From assembly GCA_030550095.1 (NCBI GenBank), contig JAUQQA010000028.1, positions 1-33,215 on the forward strand: a DNA stretch of 33,215 bases, read 5' to 3'. Both the position numbers and the translations under genes were made by a program. The stretch is from Chloroflexota bacterium (GTDB lineage: Bacteria > Chloroflexota > Anaerolineae > J036 > Brachytrichaceae). Shown one piece after another: positions 21,941-26,220 of the stretch (the first letter of the stretch is position 1; every line of letters begins with the position of its first letter). The notes under the pieces were generated by a model. That model had not been told where the DNA came from. It did not search any database and saw only the letters and a list, made by a program, of their open reading frames with translations.

Positions 21941-24010
21941 CTAGCGCGGGAACGCCTCGCGCACGCCACCGTCCACGGGGATCATCGCGCCCGTTGTTTT
22001 CGCGGAACGGTCAGAGGCAAGCCAAAACACTGCCTCAGCAACGTCCTCGGCAGTAACACGCGCGCGCAGCAAGTTGCGCTTAGCGTAGTACTCCTCGATC
22101 TGGTTTTCCGGGATGCCTTGTGCCTGCGCCCGTTGCCGCCGTAGCTCAGGCGACCAAAGCTGCGTGCTGAACACGGCATCAGGGTTCACCATGTTGGCGC
22201 GGATGCCGTGCTCGCCGCCTTCAATGGCGACGATGCGGCAAAGCTGCGCCTCGGCGGCTTTTGCCGCGCTGTAAGCGCCGAACTCCTTGCCTGGCGCCGT
22301 CACGTTCTTTGTGGCGTTGAACACCAAGCTGCCACCAATGCCTTGGCGCTGCATCAAGCGCAACGCCGCGCGGCTGACGAGGAAATGTCCCGTGGCGTTG
22401 ACCGCCAAGCTGCGCTGCCAATCCTCAAGGCTTAGGTCCACAATCGCCGCAGCACGCGCGATCCCTGCGTTGGAGATCACGATGTCCACGCCGCCGTAGG
22501 TGAGCACAGCGCGATCGAACGCAGCGTTCACGCTTGCCTCGTCCGTCACGTCGAGGTGGAGCGCGAGAGCGCGCCCCAAGCCATGTTGCTGCACGATCTG
22601 CTCTGCAACCGCACGAGCAGCCGCTTCGTCAATGTCGGTGACGACCACATGCGCACCCTCAGCAGCAAGGCGCAACGCGATCGCCTTGCCGATGCCGTGC
22701 CCTGCGCCCGTCACCAGCGCGACGCGCCGTGCCAACTCGCGCTCTGGCGGCGCAAGCGTGAGCTTGTAGAGTTCAAGAGGCCAATATTCGGCATGGAACG
22801 CCTCGGCATCGTTCAAACTCACGTAGCCGCCGAGCGCCTGCGCGGCTTGCATGATCGCGAGGGTGTGATGTGCGATGTCGGCAGCGACAGTTGCCGCGCG
22901 CATGTCCCTGCCTGCTGTCCACATGCCCACGCCCGGCACGAAGATCACGCGCGGCAGGTCGCTCACTTGTGCGGCGGCTTCGGCGCTCAACAGCGAAGGA
23001 TCGTAGTGCTGCGCAAAGCGCCGTTTGCACGCTGCCTCGTAGGCTTCGAGGTGCGCGCGCAGATGCTCGCGGATGGTGGCGTCGTCGAGCGGTTCTTGGA
23101 GCGGCAGCGGCGCCCAAAGCGCAGCGCGCTTGGTGTGCAGCATGTGATCAGGTGTGGCGGCGCCTGCTTGGAGAAGCTGCGGCGCGTCTGGGCGCATCAT
23201 GAACGTCATCACGTCGTCGCTGTCGTCGAAGCGCAACACCACGCGCCGCTCGCGGCTGAGCAGCCCGCGCAAGATCGGCGCGATGCGCACAGCGAGCGCG
23301 CGGCGTCGCTCTACGTCGCTTGTGGGGACAGCAGGCGCTGCTGCGGGGAAAACGCGCTGCGCGACGAACGCCTCAGCCTCAGTGACCAGCGCGATGTGAC
23401 GGTCGTAAGCTTCCTTGGGCGTCTCGCCCCACGTCACCAAGCCATGGTTCATCAGCACCAAGCCGCGCGCGTTAGGATTCGCGCGCACGGCAGCGCCGAC
23501 GAGCTTAGAGAGTTGAAAGCCAGGGCGAAGGTAAGGCACGATCAGCACGTCGTCGCCGAAACACGCGCGCACGGTCGCCTCGCGCCCGCGCGTGTTGGTC
23601 AACATGAGGATCGCGTCGGCGTGCGTGTGCAACACGGCAGGCGCTGGGATGAAGGCGTGCAGCAACGTCTCGATGGACGGGCGCGGCGCGTCGGGGTCGA
23701 GCAACGTGTGGCGCACGTAGCGCACCATTTCCTCGTCGCTCATCGCTTCGCGCTCAAAGAGCGCCAACAACGGCGCAAGGCGCACGGCGGGGTAATCGCG
23801 GCGTTGCATGGCGAGCATGTTGCCGCCGCTGCCCTTGATGCGCATCGCTTGCACCATCGAGCCGTCGAAGTCAACTTCAATGGTCTTCATGCTGTTATTG
23901 CCGCCGCCCCACAGCACAAGCGCTGGCTCCTCGCCTACACAACGTGCTTGGTAAATCAGCGCCTCGACTGCGTCTTGCGCGATGAAGTCAGCTTGCCAAC
24001 GGTTGCGCAT
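21941..24010 (-). CDS. Bifunctional class II aldolase / short-chain dehydrogenase (rhamnulose-1-phosphate aldolase/alcohol dehydrogenase type)
   Basis: The 689-residue fusion has two enzymes. Residues 1 to about 420 are a class II aldolase/adducin domain: GGNNSMK, PSIETLLHAF (catalytic Glu), VLHTHADA (metal His pair) and LMNHGL. Residues from about 428 are an SDR domain: VTGAGHGIGKA for NAD, DID, ISNAGIA and Y-x3-K in AYSAAKAA. The usual catalytic Ser position reads NATKN. This is the TIGR02632-type arrangement: aldolase cleavage of rhamnulose-1-phosphate or a related sugar phosphate, then oxidation of the resulting aldehyde or reduction partner. The sugar is not certain. GATAAT (24024-24019) ends 8 nt before ATG 24010. 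galT lies 39 bp upstream on the same strand. Confidence 0.9.
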   Translation of the reverse strand: MRNRWQADFIAQDAVEALIYQARCVGEEPALVLWGGGNNSMKTIEVDFDGSMVQAMRIKGSGGNMLAMQRRDYPAVRLAPLLALFEREAMSDEEMVRYVRHTLLDPDAPRPSIETLLHAFIPAPAVLHTHADAILMLTNTRGREATVRACFGDDVLIVPYLRPGFQLSKLVGAAVRANPNARGLVLMNHGLVTWGETPKEAYDRHIALVTEAEAFVAQRVFPAAAPAVPTSDVERRRALAVRIAPILRGLLSRERRVVLRFDDSDDVMTFMMRPDAPQLLQAGAATPDHMLHTKRAALWAPLPLQEPLDDATIREHLRAHLEAYEAACKRRFAQHYDPSLLSAEAAAQVSDLPRVIFVPGVGMWTAGRDMRAATVAADIAHHTLAIMQAAQALGGYVSLNDAEAFHAEYWPLELYKLTLAPPERELARRVALVTGAGHGIGKAIALRLAAEGAHVVVTDIDEAAARAVAEQIVQQHGLGRALALHLDVTDEASVNAAFDRAVLTYGGVDIVISNAGIARAAAIVDLSLEDWQRSLAVNATGHFLVSRAALRLMQRQGIGGSLVFNATKNVTAPGKEFGAYSAAKAAEAQLCRIVAIEGGEHGIRANMVNPDAVFSTQLWSPELRRQRAQAQGIPENQIEEYYAKRNLLRARVTAEDVAEAVFWLASDRSAKTTGAMIPVDGGVREAFPR

Positions 24011-24018
24011 GGTGTTGG

Positions 24019-24024
24019 ATTATC
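24019..24024 (-). promoter_or_regulatory. -10 element before the aldolase/SDR gene, leaderless type
   Basis: GATAAT on the minus strand lies in the 39-bp gap after galT and ends 8 nt before ATG 24010. No clear -35 is seen at 16-18 bp, and no Shine-Dalgarno site precedes the ATG. Confidence 0.4.
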
Positions 24025-24049
24025 GGCGCGCACACATGCTGACCGGTGT

Positions 24050-25096
24050 TCACATCAGTGCGCGCAGGCGCGCCGCAGCTTGCTCGGGGGTGAGGTCGCG
24101 CTGCGGCTGTGCGAGCATCTCGTAGCCCACCATGAACTTGCGCACGGTGGCGCTGCGCAACAACGGCGGATAGAAGTGCAGATGCAGTTGCCACTCCTCA
24201 TGAGGCTCGCCGTCGTAGGGCGCCTGGTGCACGCCCATCGTGTAGGGGAAACTCACCTCAAAGAGGCGGTCGTAGCCCATCGTTAAACGCTTGAGCGCCT
24301 CTGCCAGCGCATCGCGCTCCTCTTCGCTCAGCTCGGTGATCCACCGCACGTGGCGCCGCGGCAGGATCATCGTCTCGAAGGGCCACACCGCCCAAAACGG
24401 CACCAACGCCACGAAGTGCGCGTTCTCGAACAGCACGCGCGTCTCTTGCGCCAGCTCCACCCGTAGGTAATCCAACAGCAGCGGCGCTTGCGGCGTCGCC
24501 TTCCCCATGCCGGGTAGCTCGCCGCGCAAGTAGCGCTGCTGATTGCGCGTCTCTTTGACGATCTCGGTTGGCAAGTGCGCTGTTGCCCAAAGCTGGCCGT
24601 GGGGGTGTGGGTTGCTTGCGCCCATCATCTCCCCTTTGTTCTCGAAGAGCTGGATGTAAGTGATGTCCTCGCGCGCGCCAAGCTCGGCGCACTGCTCAAC
24701 CCATGTGTCCACCACAGCGCGAATTTGCACCACGGGCAGCTCAGCGAGCGTGAGATCATGACGCGGTGAAAAGCAAATCACCCGGCACACCCCATTTTCC
24801 GCCTGCGCGCGCAGCAGCGGCGAGATCAAGGAGACCGTCTCCAGCGGAAGCGGCTGCGAGACCAGCGCGGGGAAGTCGTTGTCGAACACAAACACGCCTG
24901 TGTAGTTCGGGTTCACGGCGCCATTGGCGCGGCGATTGCCCGGGCAAAGGTAACACGCAGGGTCGTATTCAGGGCGGCGCGCCTCAGGGGGACGCTCAAC
25001 GGCGCCCAGCCAAGGGCGTTGTGCGCGTTGCGGCGAGACGAGCAGCCACTCGTCAGTGAGTGGGTTGTAGCGGCGATGAGGCAGTGACCAATCCAT
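24050..25096 (-). CDS. galT: Galactose-1-phosphate uridylyltransferase
   Basis: The 348-residue enzyme swaps UMP between UDP-glucose and galactose-1-phosphate in the Leloir pathway. N-terminal metal ligands are in CYLCPGN (C48, C51). The catalytic motif is [10 protein letters not shown] (His166 is the uridylylated residue), and [13 protein letters not shown] is the family block. The second HIT-like half has [17 protein letters not shown] and [12 protein letters not shown]. Length is typical. The start ATG lies 5 bp after the stop of the SurA/TlpA fusion gene, so it is cotranscribed with it. Function beyond galactose use, such as UDP-sugar supply for glycans, is possible. Confidence 0.95.
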
Positions 25097-25101
25097 AGGC
25101 T

Positions 25102-26220
25102 CTAGCCAGAAGAACCACGTGGGCGAACTGAGGTGCCTTCGAGCAAAGGTTGAACGTAGTCAGCGAGCTGCTGCGCGTTGAGGATGCCCACGTGCCGCGC
25201 GCGCATCTCGCCGATAGGATCAATGAACACTGTGGTTGGGATGCCCACCACGCCATACCGTTGCGCCACGCTGCCGTCCACGTCGAGCAGCAAGGGGTAA
25301 TCCATGCCGTTGGCTGCTGCAAACGCGCGCACCGTTTCGGTGTCTTCGCGCAGGTTCACACCAACCACCACGACGTTGCGCGCACGGTAGGCGCGCGCGA
25401 ACGCGCCGAAGTCTTGCGCCTCAGCACGACATGAGGGGCACCACGACGCCCAAAAGTTGAGCACTACCACCTGCCCGCGAAAGTCGCTCAGCGAGACCTC
25501 ACGACCGTCCACATCGCGCAGCGTGAAGTCTGGTGCGGGGTTGACGGGCGCAGGCGTTGGAGTCGTGGGGAGGGGCGTGGCTGATTGCAGCGCAAGCACA
25601 AGCGGCGTTTGCACGGGCGTGGGCGAGGGCGCCGCAAGCACCAATGGCGTTGCCGAGAGCGGCGCGCGCGCTTGCGAAGGGCGTGGCTGCGGTGTGCTAA
25701 AGCTGACGAACAAGCTAATGCGCGCTTGGCGGCGTTGCTCCAAGAGCCAACGTTCTGCGGCTTGCGCATCGCCAAGCTGCTGTAGCGTTTGCTCGACGAG
25801 CAGCAAGCGCTGCACGGCGGCGAGCACCTCTTCGCGGCGCAAGCCGTGAGCGCTCAATGTTGCTTCAAGCTGGGCCTCGCTCACGTTCCAGCGCGTCAAC
25901 AGCGCACGCAAGCGCGCCTCAGCTTCCGTCAGCGCGGGCAAGGGGCGTGATCGCGCTTGTTGCAACACAAGGCGCTCATTCACCAAGCGTTGGAGCACCG
26001 CTTCGGCTTCGGGCACGGGTTGCCCTGCCAACGCACTCATGGCGCGATCAAGTGCTAGGGCGTGCTCCCACTCCTCGCGCGTGATCCCTTCATCGTTCAC
26101 GCGCGCCACCCAAGCTTCTTGTGCAGAGGGCACTGCCTCGCGCGCTGGAACGCGCCCACAAGCCACCAGAAGGAGCGCCAAGACGAACACGCCGAAGAGC
26201 GGCATCCACTTAGGCTTCAC
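25102..26220 (-). CDS. SurA-N/TlpA fusion lipoprotein (chaperone-like domain plus thioredoxin)
   Basis: From GTG 26220 the product has 372 residues. A signal peptide (KPKWMPLFG..., lipobox LLVAC, Cys21) is followed by a SurA-N-type helical domain (about 37-165: [33 protein letters not shown]). A Thr/Pro linker (175-228) leads to a TlpA/ResA-like thioredoxin domain (229-372: [29 protein letters not shown] with C261/C264, cis-Pro in GIPTTVF). It should act outside the membrane, combining client binding with thiol reduction or oxidation. No peptidyl-prolyl isomerase (rotamase) domain is present. TACACT (26234-26229) ends 8 nt before GTG, supporting this start over ATG 26205. galT follows 5 bp downstream. 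Confidence 0.88.

Follow-up and report, generated by a model that had tools for sequence, protein, structure and literature searches.

The window, by which we mean the whole stretch of 33,215 nucleotides analysed here, carries at 25102..26220 on the minus strand a gene for a 372-residue lipoprotein in which a SurA-type core is fused to a TlpA-type thioredoxin. The gene was delimited by its open frame and by comparison with orthologues; its start is a GTG at 26220, with an alternative ATG five codons further on (26205). The protein begins with a putative signal peptide (residues 1-22; 26155..26220, minus strand), recognised by eye, which ends in the lipobox LVAC (residues 19-22) followed by Gly and which the model renders as a low-confidence helix at residues 9-21. 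The lipobox Cys is kept in the relatives L009, L090, L091 and L010; L011 and L012 have an N-terminal hydrophobic segment that lacks it. There follow, all on the minus strand, the main lobe of the SurA-type core, with two strands and five helices (residues 36-147; 25780..26115), placed by its Pfam SurA_N_3 match, its model and its fold match; a closing segment of the core, formed by a helix and a strand (residues 152-170; 25711..25767), which was placed by a tail pattern and the VIA alignment and which in PrsA-type proteins is located after the parvulin; a disordered linker of Thr, Pro and Ala (residues 176-221; 25558..25695); and a TlpA/ResA-type thioredoxin domain (residues 227-365; 25126..25542). 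In the AlphaFold model of the whole protein, pLDDT exceeds 90 over most of both domains and falls below 50 along the linker save for one residue (176-201 and 203-221). The AlphaFold models were built from the window sequence together with relatives from other contigs, the N-domain model from six sequences.

Downstream of the fusion lies a gene for galactose-1-phosphate uridylyltransferase (GalT; 24050..25096, minus strand; Pfam PF01087, 207.8 bits, and PF02744, 200.8 bits), which also adjoins the fusion in G255, a genome of the same genus. The other neighbour is TrkA (Pfam). This GalT/TrkA neighbourhood gives no functional hint, and it places the fusion gene outside any Ccm/Ccs cluster. Further along, positions 21941-24010 encode a 689-residue protein with, by eye, an aldolase-type domain and a short-chain dehydrogenase. 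An antisense open frame of 576 codons (22556-24286) overlies that gene and is probably an artefact of the high G+C content.

The SurA identity of the N-terminal half rests on profile, orthologues and fold, because a phmmer search of this half against PDB sequences found no SurA. The Pfam model SurA_N_3 (PF13624) matches residues 8-145 with 31.5 bits against a cut-off of 27.2, a modest score, and residues 23-175 by themselves give 30.9 bits. The sister models stay under their cut-offs (SurA_N_2, 25.0 versus 28.5; SurA_N, 18.7 versus 30.8), as does SurA_N_3 itself in the orthologues L090 (24.0) and P0002 (17.3); in a further orthologue, P0003, it gave no match at E <= 0.01. Fourteen Pfam families match the window protein at E <= 1, and neither a rotamase/parvulin model nor the DsbC_N dimerisation domain is among them.

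The predicted fold of the N domain (model ma2806ae57937; pLDDT 95.3, pTM 0.86) points to the same family. The top four Foldseek matches are SurA chains (E 3.1e-4 to 1.6e-3, with just two matches at E <= 0.001). The VIA alignment with SurA 1m5y_B gives Z 12.1 and an rmsd of 3.2 over 131 aligned residues. It spans SurA residues 26-427, so that the N- and C-terminal regions of the core are both matched, including the region beyond both parvulins. The 18 top VIA rows (Z 8.7-12.4, all within the range below about 13 that in helical models can reflect a common arrangement alone) comprise SurA, the SurA-like Cj1289/PEB4, PPIase, LIC12922, PrsA of L. lactis and PpiD (8zht_A, Z 9.4). The highest of these that carries none of the labels SurA, PrsA, PPIase and PpiD is a leptospiral hypothetical protein (3nrk, Z 10.7). 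Lower rows are other PrsA or PPIase entries (5.1-8.2) and 9a7d_B, a YrvJ-YacD model (5.1), the remainder reaching 4.1 at most.

The closing segment has a counterpart in the window genome's own PrsA-type protein (L227), the product of a gene separate from the fusion, which consists of a SurA_N domain, a parvulin and the tail EEWMARLRARAQIERF; this tail is the segment that stands at residues 152-170 in the fusion. A pattern W-[LMIVFRQ]-x8-[IV] near the C terminus, picked after inspection of sequences that are themselves related to one another, occurs in 15 of 20 parvulin proteins and in 56 of 70 fusion-type domains, compared with about 3% of shuffles. By its model, the fusion seems to keep a complete SurA core, closing segment included, from which only the parvulin is missing. 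It would thus share with E. coli SurA, PrsA and PpiD the entire core fold up to the closing C-terminal helix and strand, and differ from them in that a long linker and then a thioredoxin stand in place of the parvulin. A chance or false match to SurA is ruled out by profile, fold and recurrence, despite the fact that phmmer against the PDB returned nothing relevant. According to the accessible text of PMC7195389, the core of E. coli SurA is made up of the N- and C-terminal regions, takes 16 of 26 OmpX cross-links and by itself largely complements the loss of SurA.

In the thioredoxin half, the Pfam model AhpC-TSA matches residues 227-341 with 114.6 bits (cut-off 26), and Redoxin scores 98.7 bits. 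The active site CPSC (C261 and C264; codons TGC CCC TCA TGT; 25429..25440, minus strand) and the cis-Pro P328 are present, all three residues being invariant in 8 aligned family members. ResA 1st9_A heads the Foldseek list for the thioredoxin model (TMt 0.96), and ResA is also the nearest to the C half among PDB sequences. The window protein stays under the cut-offs of all 25 NCBIfam families listed, that of ResA (NF002854) included, with 101.5 versus 170 bits; its tri-domain relative P0002 exceeds this cut-off with 175.3 bits over two stretches. With TlpA, ResA and CcmG (PF00578, PF08534) the domain has in common the fold, the WCPxC site, the GIPTT cis-Pro region and the Glu after CxxC. It differs from them in bearing a SurA core and in having no recognised Ccm gene next to it.

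The earlier note on this DNA had read the gene as a SurA-N domain fused to a TlpA thioredoxin on one lipoprotein, with a Thr/Pro linker leading to an intact CPSC thioredoxin instead of an isomerase, and had pointed to SurA_N profiles and predicted structure as the means of checking the N-terminal helices. The fusion, the lipobox, the linker and the active site all stand, and both profile (through SurA_N_3, of the three models) and fold place the helices with SurA. What has to be amended is the extent of the SurA part, which was taken for the N-terminal piece alone, as the model matches the core in full, up to and including the closing segment at its C-terminal end.

A profile of the N domain matched 178 of 396 genomes of the class Anaerolineae at E <= 1e-3, and 142 of 400 genomes in a sample of the phylum. 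The closest named relatives of the window protein belong to Candidatus Roseilinea (best segments 58% for L009 and 46% for L010), followed by Anaerolineaceae 4572_78 and Anaerolineales HSG25. We classified the best-scoring 70 loci of a longer list; they come from 68 genomes, one of which (G651) gives three, and L009, L010, L011 and L012, which recur as L111, L118, L112 and L116, were counted once. Writing N for the SurA-type core, T for the TlpA-type thioredoxin and S for a SelL-like redoxin, these 70 loci divide into 29 N-T, 21 N-T-S, 15 N-S and 5 N alone, a redoxin being present in 65. Two of the N-T rows (L136 and L144) reach a contig edge and may be N-T-S. No parvulin match was found in the 70 with a parvulin profile built from two sequences. 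The redoxin partner is replaceable, and may be TlpA, a SelL-like redoxin often with selenocysteine (Sec), or both. The survey of other Chloroflexota that the earlier note had suggested thus returned the same architecture many times over, in the 29 N-T and 21 N-T-S loci. The SurA-core/TlpA architecture is common in Anaerolineae, and since the same order recurs in many genomes, it is more than chance.

Outside this set, the 22 further loci from the phylum sample (L199-L220) comprise 19 with a parvulin, two with N alone and one T-N (L216). The T-N order, with the TlpA domain first and the SurA-type core C-terminal, was seen in L216 and L042, both from other Chloroflexota. At L097, a gene for N only is followed by a separate, adjoining TlpA gene. 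That N and T are coupled in either order, and also as neighbouring genes, speaks for a joint function, and we regard it as the main evidence for one. Small proteins with a SurA-type core and neither a redoxin nor a parvulin match were observed at L149, L153, L154, L170 and L212; G393, the genome of L212, has two N-domain matches on one strand, separated by about 400 bases.

A tree was built from 88 N domains, and a branch with support 80 sets apart the 13 parvulin-bearing rows included in it (of 20). Consequently, a recent loss of the isomerase from a parvulin protein is not favoured as the origin of the fusion. All N-T-S and N-S rows, together with 5 N-T and 4 N rows, form a group of 45 with support 94. 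For N-T, the starred branches require no fewer than 4 changes; with 41 of the 85 inner branches open, the tree does not fix how many fusion events there were.

The third domain, S, is found in 36 of the best-scoring 70 loci, where it follows the TlpA domain or else joins straight on to the core. Its redox site contains an in-frame TGA in 25 of the 36 and reads CGxC in the other 11, all of which belong to the family of the window protein (f1). In 24 of the 25, a further 106-110 codons can be read past the TGA without a stop, with homology to the Cys forms; the remaining one (L150) runs off its stretch. The N-T-S copies show FYR..[TG]UG.C. Thirteen of the 15 N-S copies show FF.[RK]C[GA]UGPD, in which CxU takes the place of UxxC, and the other two (L145 and L148) FYRGQTUGPC. 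Among the best NCBIfam matches of the S stretch in three relatives are the SelL-related redoxin NF040769 (60-71 bits, cut-off 120) and the thiol peroxidase NF006960 (49-86 bits, cut-off 140); in L090 the peroxidase scores above the redoxin (86.0 versus 71.2). S shares the UGxC or CGxC motif with these families and differs from them in being the third domain of a chaperone fusion, with scores under both cut-offs.

A hairpin with a 7-bp stem and a 3-base loop follows the TGA, starting at base 18 counted from its T. Over 24 Sec loci, 97.0% of the stem cells are paired (82.2% in shuffles) and 20 cells change on both sides. The covariation score is 0.356 versus 0.107 in shuffles, none of 500 being as high, a comparison in which relatedness among the sequences can by itself raise values above those of shuffles. 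When the partners are slid by 1-3 columns, 17-43% (at most 42.9%) are paired, against the 97.0% of the stem itself. In the 11 Cys copies, taken as a control, 58.4% of the cells are paired, a value equalled or exceeded in 51 of 500 shuffles. Neither the number of changed pairs (4) nor that of extra pair types (4) exceeds what shuffles give (114/500 and 366/500). Single windows have a weak folding z-score (mean -1.15 over 25), and the stem overlaps the codons of a conserved Q-[LI]-x-x-L peptide. An ordinary stop at the TGA of the relatives is ruled out by the open frame and the homology beyond it, and by the hairpin. For annotation, this means that a conventional reading of Sec copies ends at the UGA, as in L011, and that the third domain is easily missed.

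A tRNA-Sec (anticodon TCA, ARAGORN) was found in 7 of the 10 genomes searched, and SelB in these same seven. Three of the searched genomes have a TGA in S: G184 and G400 (L011) contain both tRNA-Sec and SelB, and G401 (L012) neither. The missing machinery of the latter is perhaps due to an incomplete assembly, its twin G538 being 80% complete. Several TGA-containing redox genes were observed in this pair, with DsbA-type genes among them (in G538), next to the lack of a tRNA-Sec or SelB over the cut-off in G401. In the window genome and in G255, the Rfam matches for tRNA-Sec lie just over the cut-off (52.0 and 49.2 bits) and are tRNA-Ser by ARAGORN; SelB is under its cut-off in both.

Close relatives of the window protein mostly have the third redoxin, often as a selenoprotein, and domain order and partner vary across the family (N-T, N-T-S, N-S, T-N). 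In G255 the orthologue is an N-T-S with Cys in S, followed by GalT as in the window. Window and G255 DNA can be aligned as far as a Leu-Leu-Glu that closes the TlpA domain, and the match resumes where GalT starts; some 400 bases between these points are absent from the window. In their place stand a replacement tail and stop (25102..25143, minus strand), where the G255 protein has a SelL-like redoxin of about 140 residues, and GalT starts five bases past the stop. An S domain hidden by a frameshift is ruled out by this same absence and spacing. Elsewhere in the window genome no close relative of S was found, the best score outside the gene itself being 48.8 bits versus 234.3 for the G255 domain. 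Taken together, the alignment suggests that the window copy lost its third domain in place. G649, of the same genus, also lacks S and has other neighbours around the fusion. Two separate losses in the genus are likely, because window and G255 are sisters on the N-domain tree (starred 99) while G649 also lacks S.

The earlier note had further imagined the fusion as a compact folding factor for a cell without a classic periplasmic Dsb set. This is contradicted by the window genome, which encodes three Thioredoxin_4 (DsbA-type) matches, a DsbB (44.6 bits, cut-off 22.1), one CcdA-like protein and, encoded immediately behind CcmF and CcmH, a CcmG-like thioredoxin (WCEEC). There is also another TlpA-like protein (L002), and the SurA_N-parvulin protein is encoded separately, so the fusion is not the sole PrsA-type protein of the cell. 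A search for VKOR came back empty for the window genome, and in all it gave no match in 7 of the 8 genomes searched.

Foldase chaperones and the enzymes of disulfide chemistry are as a rule distinct proteins outside the cytoplasm. We propose, giving it slightly better than an even chance, that here they are combined in a lipid-anchored extracytoplasmic thiol-disulfide oxidoreductase. The complete SurA/PrsA-type core without parvulin would capture partly folded exported clients, the TlpA/ResA-type thioredoxin on its long flexible linker would reduce or reshuffle their disulfides, and the CcdA-like membrane transporter would be the most likely source of electrons. Client binding, reductase or isomerase activity and electron donor are all what we infer from the two modules and the genome around them. 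It speaks against this proposal that TlpA/ResA-type proteins are mostly specific reductants and not isomerases. A related logic is known from DsbC and DsbG, which consist of a client-binding N module, a linker and a thioredoxin. The fusion would work like them, with a client-binding N module linked to a thioredoxin; however, it is built from other parts, its thioredoxin being of TlpA rather than DsbC type.

The frequency of the third domain (N-T-S in 21 and N-S in 15 of the 70 loci, 25 of these 36 carrying TGA in the redox site) would also suit an envelope antioxidant relay. The TlpA domain would pass electrons to the adjoining SelL-like redoxin, with Sec or Cys, which would reduce peroxides or small oxidants; the SurA core would mainly be a scaffold and the window copy a reduced remnant. 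The SelL-related redoxin and NF006960, a thioredoxin-dependent thiol peroxidase, score about alike on S, both under the cut-off, which fits this idea, and there is a precedent: in 2012, Cho et al. reportedly described an ScsB-type electron transporter with a cell-envelope peroxiredoxin and a link to TlpA. Both systems would lead reducing electrons to a peroxiredoxin-like partner outside the cytoplasm, but in the family studied here the two redoxins are joined to a SurA core in a single chain, and the partner, often with Sec, is SelL-like. Against the relay, 29 of the 70 loci are N-T without S, the window included (two of them cut by a contig end), and no close relative of S was found elsewhere in the window genome. 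Moreover, the active site of S lacks PxxxTxxC, the signature of true peroxiredoxins, and peroxide reduction needs no complete chaperone core. We consider the relay unlikely.

The T domain is nearest to ResA in fold and sequence, the tri-domain P0002 passes the ResA cut-off, and E267, three residues past the second Cys and invariant in the 8 aligned members, occupies the position that we take to be E80 of ResA. These features recall a ResA/CcmG-like apocytochrome c reductase, whose SurA core would recruit apocytochromes for haem ligation. We rate this lower, as quite improbable, because the CcmF-CcmH group has its own CcmG-like thioredoxin. In addition, the TlpA-like L002 is available, no cytochrome gene was recognised by eye among the listed open frames around the fusion in the window, G255 or G649, and the window protein reaches only 101.5 of the 170 bits of the ResA cut-off. 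Least probable of all is that the core acts as a docking module or translocon tether, like PpiD, that brings a generic thioredoxin close to exported proteins without itself acting as a chaperone. In its favour, PpiD occurs among the fold matches (8zht_A, Z 9.4) and the family has both lipobox-type and plain hydrophobic N termini; against it, the core is complete and has been retained in many families, more than a mere spacer would presumably require.

The gene neighbourhood in one clade speaks for the reading of the fusion as a client-capturing oxidoreductase. This clade of ten N-T loci, all of family f8, has a tandem-DsbA gene next downstream on the same strand in eight cases (L138, L156, L157, L158, L160, L164, L166 and L168); of the exceptions, L171 has no tandem-DsbA within 2 kb and L159 is cut by a contig end. 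The first active site of the tandem-DsbA reads WSDYTUPYC, with a TGA codon, in seven loci and WSDFTCSHC in one (L166), and the second resembles FSDYQCPFC. These genes were recognised by active-site motif and by eye, the family search giving two side-by-side Thioredoxin_4 matches for G397 only. It is tempting to propose, although we put this wider claim somewhat short of even, that Anaerolineae possess a lineage-wide set of envelope redox-chaperones. In these, a parvulin-free SurA/PrsA core would be combined with thioredoxins and Sec redoxins (N-T, N-T-S and N-S, with T-N in other Chloroflexota) and would work with the Sec tandem-DsbA in a selenium-boosted system of disulfide folding and repair. 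The window copy would then be a shortened form, in a genus where the Sec machinery was not found.

If this is true, much of the Anaerolineae would rely on an unstudied way of dealing with exported proteins that contain disulfides, in which a redoxin, often one with Sec, takes the place of the prolyl isomerase. The fusion family would also make it simple to test whether the SurA core acts as a portable module for client binding. Both modules belong to known families; their combination, a parvulin-free SurA core with a thioredoxin, and the tri-domain form with Sec did not turn up in searches of the open-licence literature. The accessible text of a 2026 review of prokaryotic selenoproteins contains no mention of SurA or Chloroflex (PMC13188914), and that of a paper describing selenoprotein domain fusions contains none of SurA (PMC2398784).

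Among the Dsb-type genes of the window genome, the DsbB homologue (L229; G000:C29:27234-27596) drew our attention for another reason. Its reading frame continues into a short region with the cytochrome c motif CIGCH, which may point to a fusion of DsbB with a cytochrome c.
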